Positions 2,490 through 17,481 of a DNA stretch of 64,000 nucleotides are shown here, in pieces. Position 1 is the stretch's first letter. Each line of letters opens with the position of its first letter. The notes beneath the pieces were generated by a model. It was given only the letters and a program-made list of their open reading frames with translations. It had not been told where the DNA came from and made no database searches. The DNA comes from Streptomyces sp. R41 (GTDB lineage: Bacteria; Actinomycetota; Actinomycetes; Streptomycetales; Streptomycetaceae). The stretch is taken from positions 8,415,001 to 8,479,000 of the forward strand of contig NZ_CP163443.1 of NCBI RefSeq assembly GCF_041053055.1. The letters run 5' to 3'. The position numbers and the translations under genes were made by a program.

Positions 2490-3347
2490 ATGGACAAGTC
2501 GGAACTCGTCACTGATCCGAGTGCCACCGATCCGCATGTCGCCGATCCCGGCGCGTATGTGATGAAGAAGCTGCCCGAGGTGACCCTGGCCTTCTGGGTC
2601 ATGAAGATCGCCGCGACGACCCTTGGCGAGACGGCGGGCGACCTCTTCGCCCAGACCCTCAAGTTCGGGTACTTCCTCACCACCATCCTGCTGTTCCTGA
2701 TCTTCGTGATCACGCTGGTCGTACAGCTGAAGTCACGGCGGTACAACCCGTTCTTCTACTGGACCGTGATCCTGTCGACCAGCATGGCCGGCACCACGAT
2801 GTCCGACTTCATGAACCGGGACGCCAGCGCCGAGTACCTCTCCGGCGGCGCCACCTCGCTCGGCTGGGGACCGCAGGGCCTGGGGCTCGGGTACCCCGCG
2901 GGTGCCGCGATCCTGATCTCGCTGCTCATCGTCATCTTCGTCATCTGGAAGCTGACCGGGCAGACGTTCGTCATCCGCGACATCGTGACCTTCCGGGGCG
3001 AGGCCCTCTTCTGGTCGGCGATCCTCGTGTCGAACACGCTCGGCACCTCCATGGGCGACTTCCTGTCCGACAGCTCCGGACTCGGCTACGCGGGCGGCGC
3101 GCTGCTCGTGAGCGGGGTGCTCGCGGGACTCCTCGCGCTGACGCGAGTTCCGGTCGTGCCGAATGTCCTGCTGTTCTGGTTCGCCTTCGTGCTCACCCGC
3201 CCGCTCGGCGCCACCGCGGGCGACTTCCTGACCAAGCCGGTCGCCAAGGGTGGCCTCGACCTCGGCACTGTGGGCTCCTCGGCCGTGCTCCTCGCGATCC
3301 TCGTCGGCCTCATGGGCTACGCCCACATCAAGGAGCGGCGGCCGTAG
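2490..3347 (+). CDS. COG4705-type multi-spanning membrane protein, copy 1
   Basis: A 285-residue integral membrane protein with about eight hydrophobic segments. I recognise it as the uncharacterised COG4705 family. Its most striking feature is an acidic motif repeated at the start of each hairpin: GETAGDLF (about residue 48), GTTMSDFM (about 109), GTSMGDFL (about 188) and GATAGDFL (about 244). These put four conserved Asp and several small residues in or near the membrane, as seen in ion-exchange proteins. No substrate is known to me. The start ATG at 2490 follows a GGGAG ribosome site. A paralogue with the same motifs lies at 7657. A direct repeat shared by both promoters suggests common control. 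Confidence 0.75.
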   Translation: MDKSELVTDPSATDPHVADPGAYVMKKLPEVTLAFWVMKIAATTLGETAGDLFAQTLKFGYFLTTILLFLIFVITLVVQLKSRRYNPFFYWTVILSTSMAGTTMSDFMNRDASAEYLSGGATSLGWGPQGLGLGYPAGAAILISLLIVIFVIWKLTGQTFVIRDIVTFRGEALFWSAILVSNTLGTSMGDFLSDSSGLGYAGGALLVSGVLAGLLALTRVPVVPNVLLFWFAFVLTRPLGATAGDFLTKPVAKGGLDLGTVGSSAVLLAILVGLMGYAHIKERRP

Positions 3348-3510: not shown

Positions 3511-4410
3511 CTACCAGCCGGGCAGCGTCTCGGCCAGCAGCCGCAGCAGGTCACCGGTCGCGTCGACAGCACCGAGCGCGGGCAGCGCGCCGAGGGCGAG
3601 GACCGCCGCCCCGATGGGCCACAGGTCGGGCGGCGGCGCCGTCTGCAGCGCCGCGATACGGCGGGTGACGGCGTGCTCGGAGAAGTGCAGGGCGCATCCC
3701 GTGCGGGCGCGCTGGGAGATGAGTGCGGCGCGTGCCAGGGCGCGTGCGGTGGTGCGACGGTCGCCGACGCTGCCCGCGGCCACCTCGTCGGCCCAGCGTT
3801 CCAGCAGGAACGTGACGGTGGTGCGCACGGGCACGAGCAGCGGGTTGGCCGCGGCCGCGAGCGCGACGGCGGTCGACAGCGCCGAGTGCCGGTGCACGAG
3901 ATGAGCGCGTTCGTGGGCCAGCAGGACGCGCCGCTCCGCGGGTTCGAGCGCGCCGAGCATCGCGGCCGTGACCAGGATCCGGCCCGGCGTGCCGGGAATC
4001 GCGAAGGCGTGCGGGGTCGAGGACGCGGCGACGATGAGTTCGCTGTCGGGCGGATGCCCTTCGCACAGCCGGCGCAGCACCCGGCGGATCGCGTAGTGCG
4101 CTCGTACGGCATGGAAGAGCCGGAAGGCGATCACGCCGAGCACGGCGACCGCCACGACGGCGATGGTCTCCGGGACGGGCTCGGGCAGCGAGCGACCGTC
4201 CTCACTGGCCTCCGCGGCCACCGACGGTGCCCTGTCGATCAGTGTGGCGGCGAGCAGGAACAGCGCCCAGGTGGAGGCGGCCGCGGTCAGCACGGCGGCG
4301 ACGGTGAGTACGCGGGCCGCCAGCGCCGGCGACACCCGCCTGCCCACCTGCGGCGCGACCACCGGGAGCAGCAGCGACAGGACGAGTGGAACGTAGACGT
4401 CGATCCTCAT
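3511..4410 (-). CDS. M56 family membrane metalloprotease (BlaR1-like, no sensor domain), copy 1
   Basis: A 299-residue membrane protease. Hydrophobic segments lie at about residues 5-20, 33-57 and 83-100; the zinc site HERAH is at about 165-169 followed by the ERWADEVAA helix carrying the third ligand. This is the gluzincin half of BlaR1/MecR1. Those proteins are about 585-600 residues because they add an extracellular penicillin-binding domain; here that domain is missing, so the stimulus is unlikely to be beta-lactam acylation. Its ATG overlaps the stop of the BlaI-type gene by 4 bp (ATGA, 4407-4410), making a repressor/antirepressor pair. The expected role is cleavage-triggered inactivation of that repressor. 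Confidence 0.85.
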   Translation of the reverse strand: MRIDVYVPLVLSLLLPVVAPQVGRRVSPALAARVLTVAAVLTAAASTWALFLLAATLIDRAPSVAAEASEDGRSLPEPVPETIAVVAVAVLGVIAFRLFHAVRAHYAIRRVLRRLCEGHPPDSELIVAASSTPHAFAIPGTPGRILVTAAMLGALEPAERRVLLAHERAHLVHRHSALSTAVALAAAANPLLVPVRTTVTFLLERWADEVAAGSVGDRRTTARALARAALISQRARTGCALHFSEHAVTRRIAALQTAPPPDLWPIGAAVLALGALPALGAVDATGDLLRLLAETLPGW

Positions 4411-4790
4411 GGCCCGTTTCCCCCGAGGAGGTCGCGCAGGGCCTCTTCCTCCTGGGGGCTCAGCCCGGTGACGAACTGCTGGAGGGCCGCGATCGGGTCG
4501 GGGCCGCGGTCGAGCGCCTCGTGCATGGCCTCGGCGGTCAGCTCGGCCGCGTTCTTGGCGGGCCGGTAGGCGCCGCGCCGCCCGTCCACGTCACGGAGCA
4601 CCAGGCCCTTGTCGTACAGGCGCTTGAGGATGGTGTGCACGGTGTTGTAGGCGAGACCGCCGCCGATCTCGGCCTGGATCTCGGCGGGCGTCAGGGCCTC
4701 GTCGGTGGCCCACAGGGCGGCGAGGACTTCGCTCTCCAGTTCGCCCGCGCTGCGCCGTTCCGCCCTGCCGTGGGGGCCTGTGCCAGCCAT
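4407..4790 (-). CDS. BlaI/MecI/CopY family transcriptional repressor, copy 1
   Basis: A 127-residue winged-helix repressor. The helix-turn-helix is at about residues 20-75: LESEVLAALWATDEALTPAE, then the recognition helix LAYNTVHTILKRLYDKGLV and the wing RRGAYRPA. The C-terminal half (AMHEALDRGPDPIAALQQFVTGLSPQEEEAL) is the dimerisation and cleavage region. I chose the ATG at 4790 since AAGGTGG sits 5 nt before it; a GTG at 4799 is the alternative. It is divergent from the glycosyltransferase operon, with two CTACA/TGTAG palindromes between them (4914-4950). It probably represses that operon and perhaps itself, with release by the coupled M56 protease. Confidence 0.9.
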   Translation of the reverse strand: MAGTGPHGRAERRSAGELESEVLAALWATDEALTPAEIQAEIGGGLAYNTVHTILKRLYDKGLVLRDVDGRRGAYRPAKNAAELTAEAMHEALDRGPDPIAALQQFVTGLSPQEEEALRDLLGGNGP

Positions 4791-4913
4791 GTCCGCCACC
4801 TTACAGCGCGTAGGGGCGCGAGCACCGGGCCGGACTCCGGATGCCGCTCCCGGACTGCATCCATGACTGGTTCACGCTAATTTGTCCATGATTTTCCGGC
4901 TCCATCCTTCACA

Positions 4914-4950
4914 CTACATCCTGTAGGGTGAAGGACCCTACAGGATGTAG
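4914..4950. promoter_or_regulatory. Double BlaI-type operator in front of the glycosyltransferase operon
   Basis: CTACATCCTGTAG (4914-4926) and CTACAGGATGTAG (4938-4950) are each CTACA-N3-TGTAG palindromes. They are also exact reverse complements of each other, so 4914-4928 and 4936-4950 form a perfect 15-bp inverted repeat around TGAAGGA. Flanking CTTCAC/GTGAAG extends the first palindrome. BlaI/MecI operators are known to have TACA/TGTA half-sites. The site ends 16 bp before the ATG at 4967 and within 125 bp of the divergent blaI-like start. Confidence 0.75.
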
Positions 4951-4966
4951 GGCTGAAGGGTGGACG

Positions 4967-6469
4967 ATGGTCAAGACCTTGAACATCCCGCTCGTCGGCG
5001 CCAAGCGCCGCGCCCCGTCCTCGGCTGCCCGCGTGTCGAGACGGCCCGGCGGCGACGTGTGGCTCGCACTGGTCGCGGTCGCCTTCACCTTGGCTCAACT
5101 CGTCCTCGTACGCCCCGGAATGGGCCTCGGCTGGGACGAGACCGTGTACGTCAGTCAGGTCAGCCCGCACGTCCCCGCGGCGTTCTTCAGCGCCCCGCGC
5201 GCCCGCGGTGTCCCGCTGCTCGTCGCGCCGATCGCCTCCTGGTCCTCGTCCACGACGCTGCTGCGGGTCTACCTCGCCCTGCTGTCCGGCCTCGCCCTGT
5301 ACCTGGCGTTGCGCGTCTGGCGGGGATTGTTCCCGACACGGGTACTGGCGACGGCGGGCGGCGTGTTCGCGACGCTGTGGGTGACGCTGTTCTACGGTCC
5401 GCAGGCCATGCCCAACTACTGGGTCGCGATCGGCGCCCTGGCCTGCGTCGGCTGCTTCCTGCGCGCCCGCGCGGACCGCTCCGACCGGGCGGCGTTGTGG
5501 GGGGTGGGCCTCAGCACCGCGCTGATGGCCTGGATGCGGCCCACCGACGCGGTCTGGACGGCCCTGCCGCTCCTGGTGCTCGCCGTGGCCGTCCGCGGAT
5601 GGCCACGGCCGAGGCTGCTGGTCGCCCTCGTCGCGGGTCTGGTGGCCGGAGCGGGCGAGTGGGTCCTCGAGGCGTACGTCAGCTACGGCGGCCTGGGTCA
5701 GCGGCTCGCGGACGCCTCCCGCATCCAGGGCGGCCTGGGCTGGAACTTCGCCGTCGGCGACCAGATGCGCAGCCTGAGCGGACGCGCCCTGTGCCGCCCG
5801 TGCACCGGGGCGATGCCGAACCCGGTGGTGATGGTGTGGTGGTTCGCGCTGCCGCTGCTCGCCGTCCTCGGTCTGGTGATCGCCGTCAGGGCCCGGCGCA
5901 CGGCGACCACACTGTTGCTCCTGGCCTGCGCCACGACGGCGGGCATCCCGTATCTGTTCATGATCGGATACGCCGCCCCGCGCTTTCTGCTCCCCGTCTA
6001 CGCCCTCCTCGCGATCCCGGTCGCCGACGCCCTCGTCCACCTGGTCACCGCCCCGAGCCGGGCCTGGCGCCCGGTGGCCGTGACCCTGGTGGCGCTCGGC
6101 CTCGCCGGGCACCTGGCGGTTCAATTCGCGGTCCTGCAAGCCACCGTGCAGCGCACCACCGACTCCCACCGGGCCTGGGCGGCCACGGCGGCCGACCTGC
6201 ACCGGCTCGGCGTACGGCCGCCCTGCCTGCTGACCGGCCACGAGGCCGTCCCGATCGCCTTCTACGCCGGTTGCTCCTCCGTCGCGACCAGTGGCCACAA
6301 CGCCAACACCACCGAGACGGACATCGTGCGGTCCGGACGGCGCGAGCCGGTCGGCGTGCTCACCACCCCGGGAGGACGGCCGCCCGCATACGCCCGCGAT
6401 TGGGCCCCGCACCCCGCCGGTGACCTGCGTGTCTATGTCGCACCAGGGGCGGGAGGCGGGGCGGTATGA
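4967..6469 (+). CDS. GT-C fold membrane glycosyltransferase (ArnT/PMT-like)
   Basis: A 500-residue protein with about ten transmembrane segments. After a short basic N-terminus and the first membrane helix comes GMGLGWDETVY (about residue 45-55), the acidic first-loop motif of GT-C enzymes that use polyprenyl-phosphate sugars. Further features are the FYGPQAMPNYW loop (about 138) and a soluble C-terminal tail (about 385-500) ending in RVYVAPG. Such enzymes move a sugar from a lipid carrier to a lipid or protein outside the membrane. I use the ATG at 4967, preceded by GAAGGG, because an upstream GTG at 4928 lies inside the BlaI-type operator. It overlaps the next gene by ATGA. Acceptor unknown. 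Confidence 0.75.
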   Translation: MVKTLNIPLVGAKRRAPSSAARVSRRPGGDVWLALVAVAFTLAQLVLVRPGMGLGWDETVYVSQVSPHVPAAFFSAPRARGVPLLVAPIASWSSSTTLLRVYLALLSGLALYLALRVWRGLFPTRVLATAGGVFATLWVTLFYGPQAMPNYWVAIGALACVGCFLRARADRSDRAALWGVGLSTALMAWMRPTDAVWTALPLLVLAVAVRGWPRPRLLVALVAGLVAGAGEWVLEAYVSYGGLGQRLADASRIQGGLGWNFAVGDQMRSLSGRALCRPCTGAMPNPVVMVWWFALPLLAVLGLVIAVRARRTATTLLLLACATTAGIPYLFMIGYAAPRFLLPVYALLAIPVADALVHLVTAPSRAWRPVAVTLVALGLAGHLAVQFAVLQATVQRTTDSHRAWAATAADLHRLGVRPPCLLTGHEAVPIAFYAGCSSVATSGHNANTTETDIVRSGRREPVGVLTTPGGRPPAYARDWAPHPAGDLRVYVAPGAGGGAV

Positions 6470-7437
6470 CCGTCCCGTCCGGCGCCCCTGCGACAACCGT
6501 CGACGGGCCGGCGTCCACGAGGAGGCCGTTGTCCGTCGGCAGACGGGTCTCCTGGCACGCCGCGGTCACTCTTGTCATGCTGGTGTGCGCGGTGTATCTA
6601 GCCCGGCGCCACTGGCCGGTGATCGAGACCGGAGCCGATCGGCTCGCCGCCGCCGACCGAGGCTGGCTGCTCGTGGCGACCGCCGCCACCTCGGCGACCT
6701 GGGCGTGTTCGGCCCTCGCCCAGCAGGGCGCGGTGGCCCGGTCGTTGCCCGCCCGGCGCCTGGTGGCGGTGCAGTTCGCGGCCTCCGCCGCCAACCACGT
6801 CCTGCCCGCCGGTCTCGGGGCGGGCGCCGTCAATCTGCGCTTCCTTACCCGTTGCGGGCTGCCCGTCACCCGGTCGGCGACCGCGCTCGCGGTCAAGGCC
6901 ACCGCGGGGACCGTGGTCAGAGGCTGTCTGATCGCCGCGCTCGCGCCGGCCTGCCCCGGCGCACTGCGCTCCCCGCACGTATCCGCGACGGCATGGGCGG
7001 TGACGGTCGCGGTGGTCGCCACCGCCGTGGTCCTGCTGTCGGGGCCGCTGCGGCGCGCCCTTCGAGCCGTACTGGCGGACATCCGCGCCGTGCACGAAGT
7101 ACCCGCGCGGGCGGTGGCGTTGTGGGGCGGCTCGCTCGCCTTCACCGCGCTGCACGCCGCCGTGGTCATCGCCGTCACCCAGGCCATCGACCTGCCGCTG
7201 CCCCCGGCCCAGGTGGCACTGGCGTACCTCGCCGCGAGCAGCGCCGCCGTCCTGCTGCCCACTCCCGGCGGCCTCGGCTCCCTGGACGCCGCACTCGCCC
7301 TGGCTCTCACCCTCGCCGGAGCACCGGGCAGCGCGGCGGCATCGGCGGTCCTCGGCTACCGGCTGCTGACGGTGTGGCTGCCGCTGCTTCCAGGGCTGGT
7401 CGCGCTGGGGGTGCTGGTGCGCCGCCGAGTGCTCTGA
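6466..7437 (+). CDS. UPF0104/YbhN-type lysylphosphatidylglycerol-synthase transmembrane-region protein
   Basis: A 323-residue membrane protein with about eight helices. Hallmarks of the UPF0104 (AglD/YbhN, LPG synthase TM region) family are present: SAANHVLPAGLGAGAVNLRFL at about residues 106-126, split here by a polar turn, and the closing loop PTPGGLGSLDAALALAL at about 265-281. Family members are candidate lipid flippases or partners of glycosyltransferases and often neighbour GT-C genes. It is translationally coupled to the upstream glycosyltransferase (ATGA at 6466-6469), so both should answer to the BlaI-type operator. No synthase domain follows, so it is not an MprF-type aminoacyl transferase. 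Confidence 0.8.
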   Translation: MTVPSGAPATTVDGPASTRRPLSVGRRVSWHAAVTLVMLVCAVYLARRHWPVIETGADRLAAADRGWLLVATAATSATWACSALAQQGAVARSLPARRLVAVQFAASAANHVLPAGLGAGAVNLRFLTRCGLPVTRSATALAVKATAGTVVRGCLIAALAPACPGALRSPHVSATAWAVTVAVVATAVVLLSGPLRRALRAVLADIRAVHEVPARAVALWGGSLAFTALHAAVVIAVTQAIDLPLPPAQVALAYLAASSAAVLLPTPGGLGSLDAALALALTLAGAPGSAAASAVLGYRLLTVWLPLLPGLVALGVLVRRRVL

Positions 7438-7616
7438 ACCGCCGTACGGCTCACGTGAGTTCGAGACGGTGGCCGCGCCCCGGCAGTGTGGTGATCCGCG
7501 GCGCACGCAAGGGCTGCCGCCCCGGGTACGGCCGCACCGAGGGTACGGGCGGCGCGGGCGTCGGTCTCGCCCTCGCGGGTGGGCGGGATCGGTCGGAGGT
7601 GAGACCGGTCGGGTAG

Positions 7617-7638
7617 TCAGGATGTATTCAGGCATCGG
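7617..7638. promoter_or_regulatory. Candidate OmpR-type direct repeat upstream of the second COG4705 gene
   Basis: GTCAGgatgta then TTCAGgcatcg at 11-bp spacing; TCAGGATGTATTCA matches TCAGGATGTGTTCA at 2404-2417 before the paralogue in all but one base. The site ends about 18 bp before the ATG. The remaining 180 bp upstream of it shows no gene. Confidence 0.4.
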
Positions 7639-7656
7639 CTGGCAGCGTCCGCTCCC

Positions 7657-8490
7657 ATGACATCCGAGACTTCCGAGACGTCCGTTGCGTACGGCCGGAC
7701 CGAGGCCGCCCCCCGCCACCCCATGCGCTGGAACAAGGTGCCCGAAGTCACCGCGTACTTCTGGTTCATCAAGGTGCTGTGCACGACGGTCGGCGAGACC
7801 GCGGCGGACCTCCTGAACGAGAAGCTGGGCCTGGGCCTGACCGGCGTGTCGCTGCTGATGAGCGCGCTGCTGGCGGTGGTCCTCGTCGTCCAGTTCCGCA
7901 CGAAGGCCTACAAGGCAGGCGTCTACTGGTTCGCCGTGGCTCTGATCAGCGTCGTCGGCACGCTGATCAGCGACAACTTGACCGACAACCTGGGCGTGCC
8001 GCTGGAGACCAGCACCGCCGTGTTCGCCGTCGCCCTCGCCGTCGTCTTCTTCGTCTGGTACCGCCGCGAGCGGACCCTGTCCATCCACAGCATCGACACG
8101 CTGTCGCGCGAGGCCTACTACTGGCTGGCGGTGCTGTTCACCTTCGCGCTGGGCACCGCGGCCGGTGACCTCGTCGCCGAGCGCATGGCTCTCGGCTACT
8201 GGGTCTCCGCCGTCCTGTTCGGCCTCGCCATCGCCGCGGTCGCGGTCGCGCACGTCGCGCTCGGCCTGAACGCCGTACTCAGCTTCTGGATCGCGTACAT
8301 TCTCACCCGCCCGCTGGGCGCCTCGATCGGTGACTACCTCTCGCAGCCCACCGGCGACGGCGGCCTGGGCTTCGGCACCGTGGTCACCAGCGTGCTGTTC
8401 CTCGCGGTCATCCTCGGCCTGGTCGTGTACCTCTCGGTGACGCGCCGGGATGTCGCCGAGGCCGAGCGGCTCACCCCGCAGGGAGGCTGA
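7657..8490 (+). CDS. COG4705-type multi-spanning membrane protein, copy 2
   Basis: A 277-residue paralogue of the protein at 2490, with the same order of segments beginning KVPEVTAYFWFIKVLCTTVGETAADLL. The four acidic motifs are kept: GETAADLL, GTLISDNL, GTAAGDLV and GASIGDYL, the last followed by LSQPTGDGGLGFG as in copy 1 (LTKPVAKGGLDLG). Three of the four end in GD or AD with the Asp invariant. Shared promoter repeats suggest that both copies are induced together. It converges on the histidine kinase gene, overlapping its 3' end by 20 bp (8471-8490). Substrate unknown; a role in ion or envelope homeostasis is only a guess. Confidence 0.75.
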   Translation: MTSETSETSVAYGRTEAAPRHPMRWNKVPEVTAYFWFIKVLCTTVGETAADLLNEKLGLGLTGVSLLMSALLAVVLVVQFRTKAYKAGVYWFAVALISVVGTLISDNLTDNLGVPLETSTAVFAVALAVVFFVWYRRERTLSIHSIDTLSREAYYWLAVLFTFALGTAAGDLVAERMALGYWVSAVLFGLAIAAVAVAHVALGLNAVLSFWIAYILTRPLGASIGDYLSQPTGDGGLGFGTVVTSVLFLAVILGLVVYLSVTRRDVAEAERLTPQGG

Positions 8491-9940
8491 CCACGAACCT
8501 CGCGCCCGAGGTGTGCCGCTCGTCGTAGTGCACCTCGCCGCCGGCGGAGCGGGCCAGGCGTCGCGAGAGCGGCAGCCCCAGGCCCGCTCCGCCGTGTCCG
8601 TCCCCCGGATCGGCGCGGCGCCCCGGTTGGAAGAGCTGCGTCGCGAACGACGCGGGTACGCCGGGTCCGTCATCCGTGACATCGACGCGTACGCCGCCGG
8701 GGCGTGCGCGCGCCCGGAGCTCGACCCGCGCCCGCGCGTGCCGCAGCGCGTTGTCGAGCAGGGGACTGACGATGCGCTCCAGGAGGGCGTCCGGCACACC
8801 GGCCGACAGCTCGGCGTCCCGCCCGGTGACGACCACCTCCACTGTCTCGGTCGGCGCGACGCGGTCCGCGAGCCGCCGCAGCACGGGCAGTACGTCGGTC
8901 GTGCCGGGCGCGGTGGCCGCGCTGTCGCGCGCGTCGTCCAGGAGGGTGTCGCAGATCGTGCGCATGGACTGGGCGGCGTCGGCGATGACTTCGTGCGTGC
9001 TCCGGGTGTCGGCGGCGGAGCGGGGACGGGCCTGCCACCAGTCGAGCTCCGCGATGATCCGGGCGAGCGGGTTGCGCAGTTCGTGCGACAGCTCTCGGGT
9101 GAGCTGCCGCTCGTGGCGCAGCAGCGCGCGGATGCGGTCCAGGAGTGCGTCCAACGACCCGCCCAGCTGGGCCAGTTCGGTGGGCCGGGCCACGCTTCCG
9201 AAGCGGTCCTCGGAGGCTATGGCGCTCCACCGCGTGGCGTGCTCGGTCATGGTGCGTACGGGACGCAGCGCGCGCCCGACCGCCAGGCGTGTCAGCGCGT
9301 ATGTGCAGGCGAGCATGACGGCGTCGAGCGCGAGCGAGGCGAGGAGCAGGGCCTCGGCCGAGCTGCGATAGGGGGACAGGTCCAGCGCGGTCACGACGGT
9401 CGCGGCACCCTTGTCGCCGGGCACGGGTCGCGAGCACAGCCGGACGGGGCCGTGGCTGTGGGCGGTGACGCACTGTCCGCCGCCCCGCGCGGCGAGCCGG
9501 TCCGCGGTGCGGGTCAGCGGGCCGGTGGCGGTGGTGGAGGGGGGCTTTTCGAGGAGCCGGCCGCCCGCGTAGATCCACACGTTCGTGTCGAGCAACTCCT
9601 CGCCCGGCGTTTCCAGGACGCGCACCCGGGGGCCGCTGGTGTCGACGGTCGCGGCGACGGCGGCGGCCCGCGTGCGCAGTTCGTCGTCCGCCTGGTGCTG
9701 GAGGTGGCGCTGTACGACCGTGTTGAACGCGACGGTGAGGATCACCATCAGCAGCGTGGCGGTGGTCAGCGCGACCAGGGAGAGCCGGCCGCGCAGGGTA
9801 CGCGGCCACCACCGGGAGCACAGCCGCCGGGGGGAGTATGGCCACCACCGAAAGCGCGGCCACCATCGGGAGACGGATGCCCTCCGGGAGACGGATGCGC
9901 TCCGGGAGACGGATGCGCTCCGGGAGACGGATGCCCTCAT
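8471..9940 (-). CDS. Sensor histidine kinase of the dedA-pap2 operon
   Basis: A 489-residue membrane kinase. It opens with an unusual basic repeat tail, (R/S)ASVSR four times (residues 2-25), and three RWWP blocks up to about 52. Then come a membrane helix (about 57-75), an extracellular domain to about 190, a second helix (about 193-212), HAMP, the H-box LSHELRNPLARI (His at about 287), and an HATPase domain with DNALRHA, DDGPGVP and GLGLPLSRRL. It shares 4 bp (ATGA) with the regulator gene. The repeat tail is encoded by an exact 18-bp tandem repeat at 9867-9938. The start is supported by the coupling, but translation could also begin inside the repeats. Confidence 0.88.
   Translation of the reverse strand: MRASVSRSASVSRSASVSRRASVSRWWPRFRWWPYSPRRLCSRWWPRTLRGRLSLVALTTATLLMVILTVAFNTVVQRHLQHQADDELRTRAAAVAATVDTSGPRVRVLETPGEELLDTNVWIYAGGRLLEKPPSTTATGPLTRTADRLAARGGGQCVTAHSHGPVRLCSRPVPGDKGAATVVTALDLSPYRSSAEALLLASLALDAVMLACTYALTRLAVGRALRPVRTMTEHATRWSAIASEDRFGSVARPTELAQLGGSLDALLDRIRALLRHERQLTRELSHELRNPLARIIAELDWWQARPRSAADTRSTHEVIADAAQSMRTICDTLLDDARDSAATAPGTTDVLPVLRRLADRVAPTETVEVVVTGRDAELSAGVPDALLERIVSPLLDNALRHARARVELRARARPGGVRVDVTDDGPGVPASFATQLFQPGRRADPGDGHGGAGLGLPLSRRLARSAGGEVHYDERHTSGARFVVSLPAG
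9867..9938. repeat. Four exact-length 18-bp tandem repeats at the kinase 5' end
   Basis: Units CGGGAGACGGATGCCCTC (9867, 9921) and CGGGAGACGGATGCGCTC (9885, 9903) differ at one base. Read on the minus strand they encode the six-residue repeat ASVSR(S/R) right after the kinase start codon. Copy-number slippage here would change the N-terminus by six residues at a time without a frameshift. Confidence 0.9.
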
Positions 9941-10599
9941 GACAGGCGGTGCCCGATACCGCGCGCGGTGGTGACGGTCAGCTCGCTGCCGCCGTCCCGC
10001 AGCTTGCGGCGCAGCCGGGTCAGATACTGGTCGAGCGTGTTGTCACTGACCTGCGCGCCCTCGGGCCAGCCCACCCTGATCAGCTCCCGCCGGCGCACGA
10101 TGTCCCCGGACGCCGCCATCAGTGCCGCCAGCAGGCGGAACTCCGTGGGAGTCAGGCCGACTCGGGTGCCCCGGACCGTGAGGCTGTGCCCCACCGGGTC
10201 GAGGATCAGGTCACCGGCCGTCGCGGTCGGAACCGAGCCGGTGCGCTTGAGGGCCGCCCGCAGCCGGGCGGCCAGCTCCGTCAGATGGAACGGCTTGGGC
10301 AGATAGTCGTCGCCCCCGGCCGAGAACCCCGCCAGCCGGTCCGTGAGGTGGTGGTGGGCCGTCAGGAAGATGACGGGGGAGAGGAAGCCGCCCGCCCGGA
10401 TCGCCTGGCACACGTCCCGTCCGTCCGCGTCGGGCAGCCCGACGTCGAGCACGGCCGCGTCGACGTCGTCCCCGGCCAGCCGCAGCGCCGTCGCGCCGTC
10501 CTGTGCGGGCACGGTGTCGAAGCCCTCGTCCCGCAGGCCGCGCAGCAGGACATCACGCAGGGCGTGATCGTCCTCGACGACCAGGATCCTGTGCCGCAT
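9937..10599 (-). CDS. OmpR/PhoB-family response regulator
   Basis: A 220-residue regulator. The receiver domain (1-115) has the acidic pair EDD at residues 8-10, phospho-acceptor Asp in AAVLDVGLPDADG (about residue 52), Thr in IFLTAHH and Lys in YLPKPFH. The winged-helix effector (about 125-220) contains LTPTEFRLLAALM, the recognition region VSDNTLDQYLTRLRRKL and the wing TTARGIGHRL. It begins 9 nt after the PAP2 stop and overlaps the kinase by 4 bp, so it belongs to the dedA-pap2 operon. The 11-bp direct repeats before both COG4705 genes have the right geometry to be its targets; that link is inferred. Confidence 0.92.
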   Translation of the reverse strand: MRHRILVVEDDHALRDVLLRGLRDEGFDTVPAQDGATALRLAGDDVDAAVLDVGLPDADGRDVCQAIRAGGFLSPVIFLTAHHHLTDRLAGFSAGGDDYLPKPFHLTELAARLRAALKRTGSVPTATAGDLILDPVGHSLTVRGTRVGLTPTEFRLLAALMAASGDIVRRRELIRVGWPEGAQVSDNTLDQYLTRLRRKLRDGGSELTVTTARGIGHRLS

Positions 10600-10608
10600 G
10601 CCTCTCCC

Positions 10609-11247
10609 TCACTTGGTCTCGTACGGGGTCGCCTCTGCGAGTTGCGGCGCTATCAGCAGGGGCCTCAGCCGCGACCTGGTGAGCCGGTGCGCCGACGTCT
10701 CGGGGATCCGGTGCAGCCCCGCCGTCAGCAGCATCGCGATCAGCGTGCCGACGAGGACTCCGGCCATGACGTCGTGCGGGTAGTGCACGCCCACCCAGAC
10801 GCGGGACGCGGCCAGCGCGCAGGCGGCCACCACCGCGACGGTGCCGAGGCGGCGGGAGACGTGGAGCAGGGCCACGGCGGCCGCGGCGGCGATGACCGCG
10901 TGATTGCTCGGGAACGACCAGTCGCCGGGGGCCGGACACGCCTCCAGCGTCCTCACCTGCAGGCTCTGACAGGGCCGGTCCTCGCGCACCAGCGTCTTGA
11001 ACACCGAGTTCACCGCGTACGCCACGACCACGATCAGCGGTACCGCGAGCGCGATCAGCGCGGCCCGGGCGCTCACCCGCCGCGCTTGCCACCAGCCCAG
11101 CAGCATGAGGACGGCGAACAGCCCGAGCCCGTACGTCGACCAGGCGGACACCAGACTGTCCAGCCACGAGGGGGAGTCCTGGGCGAGATCCACCACATAC
11201 GTGTAGGCGGAGCCGTCGATCGAGGAGCCGTCGAAGCCCGGCATCAT
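10609..11247 (-). CDS. PAP2-superfamily membrane phosphatase
   Basis: A 212-residue membrane protein with five or six helices and the three catalytic motifs of PAP2 phosphatases: KTLVREDRP (about residue 88-96), SFPSNHAV (about 118-125) and SRVWVGVHYPHDVMAG (about 160-175), the last two supplying the two catalytic His and the Asp. Members of this shape dephosphorylate lipid pyrophosphates such as undecaprenyl pyrophosphate on the outer face of the membrane, or phosphatidate. Its ATG overlaps the DedA stop (ATGA, 11244-11247), and its stop is 9 nt from the response regulator start. Pairing with a DedA protein favours a role in lipid-carrier recycling. Confidence 0.88.
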   Translation of the reverse strand: MMPGFDGSSIDGSAYTYVVDLAQDSPSWLDSLVSAWSTYGLGLFAVLMLLGWWQARRVSARAALIALAVPLIVVVAYAVNSVFKTLVREDRPCQSLQVRTLEACPAPGDWSFPSNHAVIAAAAAVALLHVSRRLGTVAVVAACALAASRVWVGVHYPHDVMAGVLVGTLIAMLLTAGLHRIPETSAHRLTRSRLRPLLIAPQLAEATPYETK

Positions 11248-11915
11248 CCTTGGACCCCCTTCTCCGCGGCGGCCGCCCGGCGTGAGCGGTACAGCTCGGC
11301 GGCGAGCGGGATCAGGGACACGGCGACGATCAGGGCGATCATCGGGAGCAGATACCGGTCCACGTTCGGAATGGACGAGCCCAGTGCGTAGCCGCCGAGT
11401 GTGAGGCCGAGGCTCCAGAGGAGTCCGCCGGTCACCTGCCAGACGGTGAAGGTCCGCACGGGGACGTGCAGGGCGCCCGCCATGGGGTTCAGCACCGTGC
11501 GCACCACGGGCACGAAGCGGGCCAGCACGATCGCCTTCGCGTATCCGTAGCGCTCCAGCAGCTCCTCGGCGCGCTGGGCGCCCGCCTGCAGCCGGGGCGA
11601 GCTGCTGCGGGCGAGCAGGGCGCCGCCCGCCTTCCGCCCGATCAGATAGCCGGTCTGCGAGCCGGCCAGCGCGCCCACGGCGGCGGCGACCAGGAGCGGG
11701 GCCAGCGACAGCTTCAGACCTCCGTGACCCGACCCGGTGCACAACAGGCCCGCCGTGAACAGCAGGGAGTCACCGGGCAGGAAGAAGCCGATCAGCAGCC
11801 CGGTCTCCGCGAACATCACCACGCCCACGCCCAGCACACCGAAGGCGGCGAGCAGGGACTGCGCGCTGAGAATATTCACGGCGAGCTGCGACGCTGTGAA
11901 CAAAGGTGCGGCCAT
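11244..11915 (-). CDS. DedA-family membrane protein
   Basis: A 223-residue DedA (SNARE-associated) protein. Typical features are ETGLLIGFFLPGDSLLF (about residue 37-53), GSQTGYLIGRKAG (about 83-95) and the ARFVPVVRTVLNPMAG loop (about 130-145) with the conserved Arg pair. DedA proteins of the UptA type carry undecaprenyl phosphate across the membrane, and others affect envelope potential and antibiotic tolerance. I chose the ATG at 11915, which has AGAGGG 9 nt upstream; ATG 11933 and a GTG at 11963 lack a good site. It is the first gene of a four-gene operon whose promoter lies by the BlaI-type operator at 11972-12006. Confidence 0.85.
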   Translation of the reverse strand: MAAPLFTASQLAVNILSAQSLLAAFGVLGVGVVMFAETGLLIGFFLPGDSLLFTAGLLCTGSGHGGLKLSLAPLLVAAAVGALAGSQTGYLIGRKAGGALLARSSSPRLQAGAQRAEELLERYGYAKAIVLARFVPVVRTVLNPMAGALHVPVRTFTVWQVTGGLLWSLGLTLGGYALGSSIPNVDRYLLPMIALIVAVSLIPLAAELYRSRRAAAAEKGVQG

Positions 11916-11971
11916 GGTCGCGGGCCCTCTCATACTGGACGGGCGGGTACGGTCGAGACGCACCCGAGTGA

Positions 11972-12006
11972 CTACAATCCTGTAGACGGTCTACTGAACT
12001 GTAGAC
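11972..12006. promoter_or_regulatory. Double BlaI-type operator between the dedA operon and the second blaI-like gene
   Basis: CTACAATCCTGTAG (11972-11985) and CTACTGAACTGTAG (11991-12004, extended by GT and AC to 11989-12006) are two CTACW-N4-TGTAG palindromes 5 bp apart. They match the half-sites at 4914-4950 except for a 4-bp instead of 3-bp centre. The position is between two divergent starts (11915 and 12031). Confidence 0.72.
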
Positions 12007-12030
12007 GATGGCGGGGTGAGGATCGTTCCC

Positions 12031-12402
12031 ATGACCAGCGCGAAGGACGAACGCCGACCGGCGGGCGAGCTCGAGGCCAGTGTGATGGCCGCACTGTGGG
12101 CCGCCGGGGCACCGCTCACACCCGGGCGTGTACAGCTGGAGCTGGACTCGGGTCTGGCGCGTACGACCGTGACGACGATCCTGTCCCGGCTGCACGAGAA
12201 GGGCATCGTCGGCCGCGAGCGGCAGGGCCGGGGCTACGCGTACTTCCCCGTCCAGGACCCGCACGGTCTCACCGCCCGGCGCATGCACAGCGAACTCGAC
12301 CGGGACGACGACCGCGAGACGGCCCTGGCCCGGTTCGTCGCCCAGCTCAGCCCCGACGACGAGCGTCTCCTGCGCGATCTGCTGGAATCGGGTGAGGAAT
12401 GA
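12031..12402 (+). CDS. BlaI/MecI/CopY family transcriptional repressor, copy 2
   Basis: A 123-residue winged-helix repressor homologous to the one at 4407: LEASVMAALWAAGAPLTPGRV, the recognition helix LARTTVTTILSRLHEKGIV and the wing GRGYAYFPV. The dimerisation part ends LARFVAQLSPDDERLLRDLL. GTGAGGA lies 8 nt before the ATG at 12031; a GTG at 12016 would overlap that ribosome site and is less likely. Its stop overlaps the M56 ATG by 4 bp. With the double operator just upstream it should repress itself and the divergent dedA-pap2-regulator-kinase operon. Confidence 0.9.
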   Translation: MTSAKDERRPAGELEASVMAALWAAGAPLTPGRVQLELDSGLARTTVTTILSRLHEKGIVGRERQGRGYAYFPVQDPHGLTARRMHSELDRDDDRETALARFVAQLSPDDERLLRDLLESGEE

Positions 12403-13337
12403 CCGCGACGACGGCCCTGCTGCTGATCCCGCTGCTGGTGCCCTTCGCGGTACCGGCGCTGGCCCGCCGCTGCCTCGCCCGTCTCGCACCCGTGACCGCA
12501 CTGTGGGCCCTGACCCTGGCGGTCGTGGTGCTCGCCGGAGCCTCCGTCGCCGCGCTCGGCGCGCTGCTCCTGACCGGCCTGCTCAAGCTGCCGGTCTTCG
12601 CGGGCCTCGGTGACCTCATCCATCCGCTGCGCACCGCGTCCGACCTGGTCGTCCTGCCCGCCGCGGCGGCCGCCACCGGCGCCCTGACCGTCGGCGCCTG
12701 GACCCTCGGACGCTCGGCCCTGCGCCAGCTCCGCGCCTTCCGCATCGCCCGCACCCAGGCCGACCGCCGGCCCGCCGCGGGCGACCTGTGCGTCATCGAG
12801 TCGCCCCACCCCGACGCGTACGCCCTGCCGGGCCGCCCGCACCGCATCGTCGTCACCACGGCGATGCTCCGCAGCCTCGGTCCCGACGAACGCGAAGCGC
12901 TCTTCGCCCATGAGCGGGCCCACAACGCGGGCGGCCACCACCGCTTCCTCCTCGTGGCCGAACTCGCGGCGCACTGCCACCCCGGTCTGCGTCCGGTCCG
13001 CGCGTCCATCGCGCTCGCCGCCGAGCGCGCCGCCGACGAGGCCGCCGCCGTCGCGGTGGGGGACCGGCGCCTGACCGCCCGCGCCATCGCCCGCGCCGCC
13101 CTGGCCACCCGGGCGTCCCACTCCACCCGCCCCGACTTCGCCCCCGCGGCCACCACCGGCCCCGTCCCCCAGCGCGTCGCCGCCCTCCTCGCCGCACCCT
13201 CGCGCCACCCCCGCGCCGCCTCCTGGATCGCCCTGCTCCTCGCCGTCTGCGCCACCCTCTCGGCCGGCGCCTCGGCGGCCGGCGTACTCGCCTTCCATCA
13301 CGAGGTGGAGGTAGCGCAGGGCGAAGAGCCCCGCTGA
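12399..13337 (+). CDS. M56 family membrane metalloprotease, copy 2
   Basis: A 312-residue protease of the same type as the one at 3511. Membrane segments lie at about residues 5-20, 27-62 and 84-102; the zinc motif HERAH is at about 170-174 and the third ligand region ERAADEAAAVAVGDRRLTAR follows (Glu at about 208). A last hydrophobic helix is at about 268-290. There is again no penicillin-binding or other large sensor domain. Gene order here is repressor then protease, both translationally coupled, mirroring copy 1. It probably inactivates the paired repressor when envelope conditions change. Confidence 0.85.
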   Translation: MTATTALLLIPLLVPFAVPALARRCLARLAPVTALWALTLAVVVLAGASVAALGALLLTGLLKLPVFAGLGDLIHPLRTASDLVVLPAAAAATGALTVGAWTLGRSALRQLRAFRIARTQADRRPAAGDLCVIESPHPDAYALPGRPHRIVVTTAMLRSLGPDEREALFAHERAHNAGGHHRFLLVAELAAHCHPGLRPVRASIALAAERAADEAAAVAVGDRRLTARAIARAALATRASHSTRPDFAPAATTGPVPQRVAALLAAPSRHPRAASWIALLLAVCATLSAGASAAGVLAFHHEVEVAQGEEPR

Positions 13338-15021: not shown

Positions 15022-15384
15022 TCACTCGGTCGTGTCACTGAGGCCGAGCCGCAGATGCTCCACGTGGTAGACCGCCTGGTCGAGGAGTTCGGCGACATGG
15101 TGGTCGTGGAGCGCGTACACCACCGAACGGCCGCTCCGCTCGCCGACGACCAGGCCCAGATTGCGCAGCAACCGCAGCTGGTGCGAGCAGGCGGACTGCT
15201 CCATGCCGACCGCTGCGGCCAACTCGGTCGCCGGGAGCGGCCCTTCGCGCAGTCGCGCGAGGATCAGCAGGCGGGAGGGTGTCGACAGCGCCTGGAGCGT
15301 GGTCGCCACCTTCGCGACGTTGGCCGCGTCCAGACGTACGCGCTCGGTGGCGTCCTGCGCGGTGGTGACGGCTCCATGACCCAT
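15022..15384 (-). CDS. ArsR/SmtB family metal-responsive repressor (NmtR/CmtR-like)
   Basis: A 120-residue winged helix. The core is LQALSTPSRLLILARLREGP, PATELAAAVGMEQSACSHQLRLL with the recognition helix at about residues 56-72, and the wing GERSGRSVVYALHD. The C-terminal helix DHHVAELLDQAVYHVEHL has His and Asp residues spaced like the alpha-5 metal site of NmtR and similar Ni/Co sensors. I use the ATG at 15384 since the longer frame from 15417 enters the operator. It is divergent from a P1B-4 ATPase with one palindromic operator between, the usual sensor-exporter arrangement. Confidence 0.88.
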   Translation of the reverse strand: MGHGAVTTAQDATERVRLDAANVAKVATTLQALSTPSRLLILARLREGPLPATELAAAVGMEQSACSHQLRLLRNLGLVVGERSGRSVVYALHDHHVAELLDQAVYHVEHLRLGLSDTTE

Positions 15385-15404
15385 GGGCGGTATCTTACCC
15401 ACCG

Positions 15405-15434
15405 CACATGAAGGCATGAATGAGTCTTCATGTG
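15405..15434. promoter_or_regulatory. ArsR/SmtB-type operator between repressor and metal ATPase
   Basis: CACATGAAG (15405-15413) and CTTCATGTG (15426-15434) are perfect 9-bp inverted arms. A nested pair CATGAA/TTCATG (15415-15420, 15428-15433) has the short 6-bp spacing typical of SmtB-family sites. It overlaps the first ATG of the ATPase frame (15430), which argues for a later start. Confidence 0.7.
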
Positions 15435-15441
15435 TTCCTGT

Positions 15442-17481
<2,040 letters not shown>

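Follow-up and report, generated by a model that had tools for sequence, protein, structure and literature searches.

What do two BlaI-type repressors, each paired with a membrane protease, control when both face operons of membrane proteins? The question arises at a chromosomal locus of Streptomyces sp. R41, in a 64-kb stretch of DNA (hereafter the window; bases 8415001–8479000 of a single 10.46-Mb contig) that holds two such pairs, which we call modules A and B. Comparison across the genus places each pair, with its sensorless protease, beside its own conserved predicted operator, and makes it likely that they form two separate switches, module B acting on recycling of the lipid carrier undecaprenyl phosphate and module A on membrane charge.

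Two repressor–protease pairs face two membrane operons

As an earlier, sequence-only reading of the window had proposed, two BlaI and membrane protease pairs lie within 10 kb. The BlaI-A (4407–4790, minus strand) and BlaI-B (12016–12402, plus strand) repressors match PF03965 with 77.8 and 91 bits, respectively (cut-off 22.6), and each is followed by a protease of about 300 residues with HERAH and ExxxD motifs: M56A (299 aa; 3511–4410, minus strand) and M56B (312 aa; 12399–13337, plus strand). The BlaI-A start was placed at the ATG at 4790, whose context is conserved among orthologs; a longer GTG frame extends to 4799. Among solved structures, BlaI-B comes closest in sequence to chain 2g9w (E = 3.6e-9), which we take to be the mycobacterial BlaI Rv1846c. 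The facing genes were also as described. Opposite blaI-A, on the plus strand, are the first gene of the A operon, encoding a GT-C fold glycosyltransferase-like membrane protein of 500 aa (4967–6469), and a gene for an LPG_synthase_TM/UPF0104 protein (6466–7437). Opposite blaI-B, on the minus strand, are genes for a DedA protein (11244–11915), a PAP2 phosphatase (10609–11247), an OmpR-type response regulator recognized by Pfam (9937–10599) and, as the last gene of the likely B operon, a histidine kinase with HisKA and HATPase_c domains (8471–9940). Consistent with the earlier statement that no β-lactamase is nearby, none of 20 window proteins scanned with Pfam between 268 and 19560 matched a β-lactamase family. 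The named relatives of the window proteins and operator belong to Streptomyces and close kin, and the R41 genome contains five good-scoring BlaI-family genes (modules A and B and three elsewhere) in addition to four weaker matches.

Two classes of operator separate the modules

The same reading had placed a pair of matching CTACA/TGTAG palindromes at each module. The palindromes were indeed found there: 4914–4926 and 4938–4950 lie within a perfect 16+16-nt inverted repeat, and 11972–12004 form an inverted repeat of 81%. The second B dyad, however, reads CTACTGAACTGTAG rather than CTACA...TGTAG, and a third A dyad had been missed. Operator A has the form CCCTAC-N5-GTAGGG. Two of its dyads, O1 (CACTACATCCTGTAGGG, 4912–4928) and O2 (CCCTACAGGATGTAGGG, 4936–4952, predicted from sequence), precede the GT-C gene at a spacing of 24 bp; the third, O3 (CCTTACAGCGCGTAGGG, 4799–4815), stands just before the blaI-A start as a probable autoregulatory site. 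Operator B (11970–12006), between dedA and blaI-B, has the form GTCTAC-N6-GTAGAC and comprises two tandem dyads 19 bp apart (GACTAC-N6-GTAGAC and GTCTAC-N6-GTAGAC). Operator A is thus a different site from operator B, and the idea of matching operators was wrong: the two classes follow two repressor clades. Dyad operators at both the target and the repressor's own promoter, as for known BlaI repressors, were found here by sequence and conservation, with binding predicted.

Exact CTACAN{2,5}TGTAG palindromes occur three times in the window compared with 0.02 expected from shuffles. The classical BlaI/MecI site has N2 spacing; with this form and up to two mismatches, the window gave 4 matches against 4.9 expected, which is not above chance. 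Three further palindromes of the R41 genome were not counted. Two at 1862377 and 1862410 (CTACA-N2-TGTAG, within G000:C1:1862377-1862421; L031 7378-7422) lie between TetR-like and monooxygenase-like genes, as read from sequence, and are likely a TetR operator; the CTACAN{2,5}TGTAG site at 4219894 lies between genes for an IclR regulator and an amino-acid permease. The R41 genome has three BlaI loci beyond these modules, and none of them shows a CTAC-N3to8-GTAG site.

Operator B recurs with DedA, PAP2 and BlaI-B throughout the genus

To follow operator B, 121 genomes of the same genus (120 drawn from the larger genus) were searched with the pattern CTAC-N6-GTAGAC-N-GTCTAC-N6-GTAG, allowing one mismatch. 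This returned 52 sites in 35 genomes, and a reversed control returned sites in none of the 121. Locus genes were named through tblastn matches to the proteins of the R41 genome (E ≤ 1e-6), and gene starts were extrapolated from these alignments. At all 52 sites a gene starts within ~450 bp and reads away from the operator: DedA at 35, PAP2 at 11, a response regulator at 4 and an SBF-family transporter at 2. DedA was counted first where two genes were present, and the PAP2 and response-regulator counts therefore refer to sites without DedA. The blaI-B gene adjoins operator B at 31 sites. Another 15 sites are free of BlaI and M56-type genes throughout the surrounding sequence examined; the gene that follows is DedA at 9 of them, PAP2 at 3 and the response regulator at 3. 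A wider scan of contigs for exact operator B, partly in the same genomes, gave at least 119 matched stretches; among the 80 examined, 60 showed DedA, 9 PAP2, 6 a response regulator or kinase and 1 SBF, while 3 showed BlaI only and 1 no gene, all four of these near the locus edge.

BlaI-B orthologs (E ≤ 1e-35, a threshold chosen with the match list already in view) were found in 39 of the 121 genomes, and operator B was found in 33 of these 39 compared with 2 of the 82 others (Fisher 3e-21; Fisher values of co-occurrence ignore kinship among the genomes). The two others (G046 and G091) carry BlaI genes of 54–57% identity, as do many operator-less genomes. Among the six BlaI-B genomes without a full operator B, five show a single dyad near the blaI-B or PAP2 gene, and one (G044) shows no dyad, even single. 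Among DedA genes, operator B lies upstream, its centre 57–151 bp away, in 33 of the 44 that reach 66% identity or more, compared with none of the 22 at 46–65% identity; a DedA paralog in the R41 genome itself, at 9268909, is also without it. The half-sites are conserved by construction of the search, but a profile built on 93 distinct exact sites also shows conservation beyond the searched letters, at a G two bases before CTAC (0.98) and an A after CTAC (0.96), and the middle of the spacer varies.

The R41 genome contains just one further operator B site, at 497 kb, 8 Mb from the first and ~60 bp before one of the 13 PAP2 matches of this genome. A glyoxalase gene lies on one side of this locus, and in several other genomes BlaI-B and its protease adjoin a glyoxalase gene 82–87% identical to it. 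The repressor pair may thus have relocated from this site while its operator stayed in place. An overlapping SBF-family transporter gene follows the unlinked PAP2 gene (L033 6370-8167); SBF is also the target-side gene at the two sites in other genomes mentioned above. Collectively, these results associate operator B with DedA, PAP2 and BlaI-B genes throughout the genus, BlaI-free sites included, and define a predicted regulon.

Both leading products of the B operon carry features of carrier recycling. The DedA protein has a VTT domain and is COG0586-like, with an acidic pair 12 residues apart (E37, D49) and two arginines 6 apart (R133, R139), corresponding to 39/51 and 130/136 in YghB, at the tips of the re-entrant helices. 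These acidic and basic residues of DedA proteins have been tied to carrier flipping (Todor et al. 2023, PMC10127716; this and the other articles cited by PMC number are drawn on for the available part of their text), and the protein is probably an undecaprenyl-phosphate flippase. Its score lies below the NCBIfam UptA equivalog cut-off (40.4 of 250 bits). The PAP2 protein (PF01569, 81 bits) is a probable undecaprenyl-pyrophosphate phosphatase. The PAP2 motifs, KxxxxxxRP, PSNH and SRx5HxxxD, are all present, as KTLVREDRP, PSNH and SRVWVGVHYPHD. Its best profile matches are undecaprenyl-diphosphatases, below the equivalog cut-offs (SepP, 66.2 of 250 bits; PRK11837 diphosphatase, 54.6 of 229 bits). 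These data support the interpretation of module B as a switch of BlaI type acting on genes for undecaprenyl-phosphate recycling.

Operator A points to a split MprF

BlaI-A orthologs with at least 77% identity occur in 18 of the 121 genomes, the next match dropping to 54%. With up to one mismatch, operator A (CCCTACANNNTGTAGGG) was found in all 18 BlaI-A genomes compared with 3 of 18 genomes without BlaI-A, and exactly in 12 of 18 compared with 0 of 18. The two sets contain 48 and 3 sites, respectively, against 19 and 23 for the reversed control. An O3-like dyad precedes blaI-A at 16 of 18 loci by a loose pattern, and the other two are one base off. The distal dyad, represented here by O1, lies between blaI-A and the GT-C or LPG_synthase_TM gene at 12 of 18 orthologous loci by pattern, and at that of G100 too. 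In two genomes (G085 and G067), an A site precedes a GT-C gene away from blaI-A. When both dyads were searched together at a constant 7-nt gap, tolerating up to two mismatches, only 4 of the 121 genomes matched (exactly in G000, the R41 genome, and in G083 and G085; weakly in G052), and the reversed control matched many genomes at this tolerance. The gap between A dyads varies, and the fixed-gap search thus missed other loci.

A further predicted target lies elsewhere in the chromosome. In 14 of the 18 BlaI-A genomes, an unlinked gene with an LPG_synthase_C domain, an MprF-type synthase, stands behind an A dyad. In the R41 genome it is a separate gene at 1.44 Mb (PF09924), and its domain is homologous to solved aminoacyl-phosphatidylglycerol synthases (4v36, E = 4e-31). 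When this synthase was searched for with a 70-residue N-terminal query, no ortholog turned up in the 18 genomes lacking BlaI-A, nor in the 4 that have BlaI-A but not the site, the R41 genome being the sole positive of this comparison, which excluded the other 13 site-bearing genomes. The LPG_synthase_TM/UPF0104 protein of the A operon (PF03706, 104.7 bits) resembles the MprF flippase-type domain: it matches NF033480 MprF with E = 1.8e-17 over the N-terminal part, below the full-length family cut-off, and gave no match in the solved-structure search. Flippase and synthase are not joined in one protein here, PF03706 being encoded at 6466–7437 and PF09924 at 1.44 Mb. Each of the four such A sites in the R41 genome precedes a member of this gene set: two sites lie at the GT-C gene, one at the synthase, and one before a small membrane protein whose kin adjoin the synthase in other genomes.

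The GT-C protein has no Pfam match of its own, whereas some of its homologs carry PF03901 or PF09913. Its predicted model appears to adopt a GT-C fold with an acidic motif in the first loop. The top Foldseek match of this low-confidence model is ArnT bound to undecaprenyl phosphate (E 0.0037), with no match at or below 0.001, and an alignment search against solved structures found nothing convincing; judging from the model, the enzyme could use a carrier-linked sugar. Because the UPF0104 protein resembles the flippase half of MprF and the same operator precedes the synthase, module A points to membrane charge, and it looks like a split-MprF regulon that may use the carrier. The proposal of an undecaprenyl-phosphate switch is therefore retained for module B, where independent sites strengthen it and whose operator tracks DedA, PAP2 and BlaI-B, and replaced by membrane charge for module A.

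Several other A sites and their neighbors were recorded. In three genomes a ~100-aa membrane protein gene with its own A dyad lies near the synthase (L032 6999-7301; L329 4169-4480; L330 4219-4497), and the two of these three proteins that were scanned have no Pfam match; in the R41 genome ~4 kb of sequence, including an FTR1 iron-permease gene, lies between it and the synthase. A gene for a 960-aa protein with GT2 and CDP-glycerol glycerophosphotransferase domains, of teichoic acid type, lies right behind an A dyad in two genomes (L328 4087-6969 and L338 1105-3987), the Pfam assignment resting on the L328 copy. Sites not counted as targets include two inside the same kind of gene (G083:C150 and G067:C1:5991000-5999000; a penicillin-binding protein by Pfam in G083), one with the same site letters (G011:C3), two unexplained sites (G094:C14 and G085:C4), and weak sites in three genomes without BlaI-A (G038, G044 and G077).

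The proteases keep the zinc motifs of BlaR1

The zinc motifs of both proteases are intact, with HERAH and ExxxD beginning at residues 166 and 204 in M56A (the latter as ERWAD) and 171 and 209 in M56B. Residues H171, E172, H175, E209 and D213 of M56B are invariant in 36 of 36 aligned members, M56A included, and 33 of the 36 match PF05569 at E ≤ 0.001. Both proteases score above the Pfam M48 cut-off (42 bits for M56A). In the models, the BlaR1 transmembrane protease scaffold appears to be kept: that of M56B aligns best with BlaR1 residues 1–302, the membrane-protease part, and ends in one long predicted helix (271–308). In agreement with the sequence-only reading, the C-terminal penicillin-binding sensor domain is missing, as lengths of 299 and 312 aa leave no room for it; yet the M56-type partners of two other BlaI genes in the R41 genome are similarly short (open reading frames of 329 and 303 aa). 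A search with M56B alone against solved structures gave nothing convincing, one with its alignment matched Ste24p/HtpX weakly along with one unrelated chain, and Foldseek returned no match at or below 0.001 for the model.

Linkage of the modules and a proposed mechanism

The earlier reading had raised conservation of the double arrangement in other Streptomyces. Both repressor genes lie within 10 kb of each other in the R41 genome and in G024 and G094. In seven more genomes, blaI-A is near a DedA gene: in five (G105, G076, G033, G116 and G100) it lies less than 10 kb from an operator-B DedA gene and BlaI-B is elsewhere, and in two (G083 and G003) it stands beside a DedA gene with a degraded operator. 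Linkage of some form is thus seen in 10 of 18 BlaI-A genomes. Genomes with a given operator class tend to hold the matching repressor clade, and sites distant from the repressor gene again precede the same kinds of gene.

On the basis of family knowledge, repression would occur at the paired dyads and release would be proteolytic. Each repressor dimer would sit on the paired dyads and block both divergent promoters, including that of its own gene, until an envelope signal activates the membrane protease, which would cut the repressor as BlaR1 cuts BlaI. In module B, PAP2 would then dephosphorylate the carrier and DedA flip it back, and the two-component system would be raised. In module A, the unlinked synthase would make aminoacyl-phosphatidylglycerol, the LPG_synthase_TM protein would flip it outward, and the GT-C enzyme would transfer a lipid-carrier-borne sugar onto an acceptor. 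If that donor is an undecaprenyl-phosphate sugar, module A would spend the carrier that module B recovers, which would explain their frequent proximity. BlaR1 cuts BlaI directly in vitro, and the cavity of the BlaR1 dimer is presumably lipid-filled (PMC9834060), making its sensorless relatives natural candidates for lipid sensing. Going further, one may speculate, with considerable doubt, that the M56 proteases read membrane lipid directly (opened by lost or mislocated undecaprenyl phosphate in B and by lost or mislocated anionic lipid in A), and that the modules jointly form a Gram-positive counterpart of Arn plus DedA, A building a surface of cationic glycolipid and aminoacyl-lipid at the carrier's cost and B restoring the carrier.

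Alternative explanations

Genome-wide, CTACAN{2,5}TGTAG is not enriched (9 places compared with 28 for the reversed control), and the proteases score 25.3 (M56A) and 21.8 (M56B) on Pfam M56 (PF05569), below the cut-off of 31. As the short palindrome is unenriched, our case rests on the longer operators and the genes behind them. For these, chance as the origin of the palindromes has next to no probability: exact operator B is expected ~1e-6 times in the R41 genome (assumed 72% G+C) and occurs twice, with no control site in 121 genomes. Could operator B instead belong to the co-operonic response regulator, leaving BlaI-B another site? At 4 of the 52 sites the gene found within 450 bp encodes a homolog of that regulator, with neither DedA nor PAP2 there, and kinase or regulator genes often come after DedA and PAP2. 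The genome-wise tracking of BlaI-B (33/39 versus 2/82), the 31 sites adjoining blaI-B, often centred 28 bp before its matched start, and the resemblance of the GTCTAC/GTAGAC double dyads to the GTCTAT repeats bound by Clostridium BlaI (PMC8457756) nevertheless make this quite improbable. A single pooled regulon, in which either repressor reads both operators, would accord with the shared CTAC/GTAG half-sites, the 52% identity between the repressors and the location of the modules within 10 kb in several genomes. We consider it very unlikely, since the operators differ in spacer (N5 versus N6), flanks (CCC/GGG versus GT/AC) and dyad spacing, and since the two systems separate between genomes: G085 carries BlaI-A together with A sites yet lacks both a BlaI-B ortholog at the cut-off and any B site, and among 14 examined genomes in which BlaI-B occurs without BlaI-A, a B site is present in 13 and an A-like site in 3.

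With the two operators assigned to their own repressors, other alternatives concern signal and function. The signal might act on the repressors themselves in the form of a small ligand, for example a dipeptide from peptidoglycan, the short proteases not being sensors. Neither protease has a sensor domain, and a ligand acting on BlaI itself has been reported in Bacillus licheniformis; a gamma-D-Glu dipeptide releases BlaI and MecI from operator DNA in vitro with Kd in the mM range (PMC3305447). Against this, HExxH and ExxxD are kept in both proteases, the zinc residues of M56B are invariant in 36 of 36 members, the protease genes lie directly behind the repressor genes, and BlaR1 itself cleaves BlaI (PMC9834060), and we regard the ligand explanation as unlikely. 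Turnover of phospholipid or storage lipid by module B, with PAP2 acting on phosphatidate and DedA on phospholipids, is rather unlikely as well. It draws on phosphatidic acid phosphatases reported in Streptomyces coelicolor (PMC3599759) and on a second DedA subfamily thought to move phospholipids. The module B DedA, however, has the E/D and R/R residues of COG0586, which the phospholipid-type COG0398 lacks in part; DedA–PAP2 fusions tied to the carrier are known; and the best PAP2 profile matches, although below cut-off, are undecaprenyl-diphosphatases. Undecaprenyl-phosphate recycling is therefore the reading of module B that we prefer.

Other features of the window

A DUF347 membrane protein gene (7657–8490, plus strand; PF03988) lies between the modules, and a second at 2490–3347 completes a pair flanking module A; in other genomes, DUF347 genes are found repeatedly next to operator B and to kinase loci. 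At the start of the histidine kinase gene (9866–9938), a tandem repeat of ~18 bases, read by eye, encodes an N-terminus of the RASVSRSASVSRS type. An ArsR-family regulator gene divergent from that of a P-type ATPase (15022–17481) is likely a metal efflux pair.

Comparison with known systems

The modules share with BlaI–BlaR1 and MecI–MecR1 of Staphylococcus and Bacillus licheniformis the same Pfam repressor, a membrane protease with HExxH and ExxxD motifs, and divergent operons over dyads. They differ in lacking the sensor domain and in their predicted targets, which are lipid-carrier and membrane-charge genes, and their operator spacing differs from the classical N2 form. If our reading is true, BlaI/M56 switches gain a role outside β-lactams, with two separable regulons in one genus, and their operators could give DNA reporters for undecaprenyl-phosphate stress and membrane-charge stress in antibiotic producers. 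The division of DedA genes into one clade mostly with a dedicated operator (33/44) and paralogs with none (0/22) makes an idea of Todor et al. directly testable.

A close regulatory parallel is in Clostridium thermocellum, where two BlaI paralogs have small regulons of their own with two dyads per target and a half-site, GTCTAT, close to GTCTAC here; the targets given in the available text are BlaR1, peptidoglycan or unknown genes, with no DedA, PAP2 or MprF among them (PMC8457756). Mycobacterial BlaI likewise acts on genes beyond β-lactamase, but these are cell division and ATP synthase genes (PMC12565901). Among the titles and abstract openings listed by the literature searches, none connected BlaI in Streptomyces with DedA, with undecaprenyl recycling or with MprF. 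On the side of the targets, module B resembles the UptA/COG0586 DedA and PAP2 recycling system in its key residues and in the DedA–PAP2 pairing, and among the same listed titles and abstract openings no dedicated repressor–protease switch for such recycling was found, including in the available text of the two reports on that system (PMC10127716, PMC9876793). The ArnT–DedA pathway, too, combines a GT-C enzyme using an undecaprenyl-phosphate sugar with DedA for cationic-peptide resistance; its acceptor is Gram-negative lipid A (PMC7835334), and the likeness of module A to it is one of fold alone. For module A, a counterpart within the genus is found in Streptomyces coelicolor, where an MprF-type synthase is also an envelope-stress gene and sigma-E exerts control at sco3397 (PMC6767563). 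Here, by comparison, a BlaI-type operator precedes a synthase that, across the 36 genomes examined, was found solely where BlaI-A is present, and the flippase-type half lies in a separate operon.

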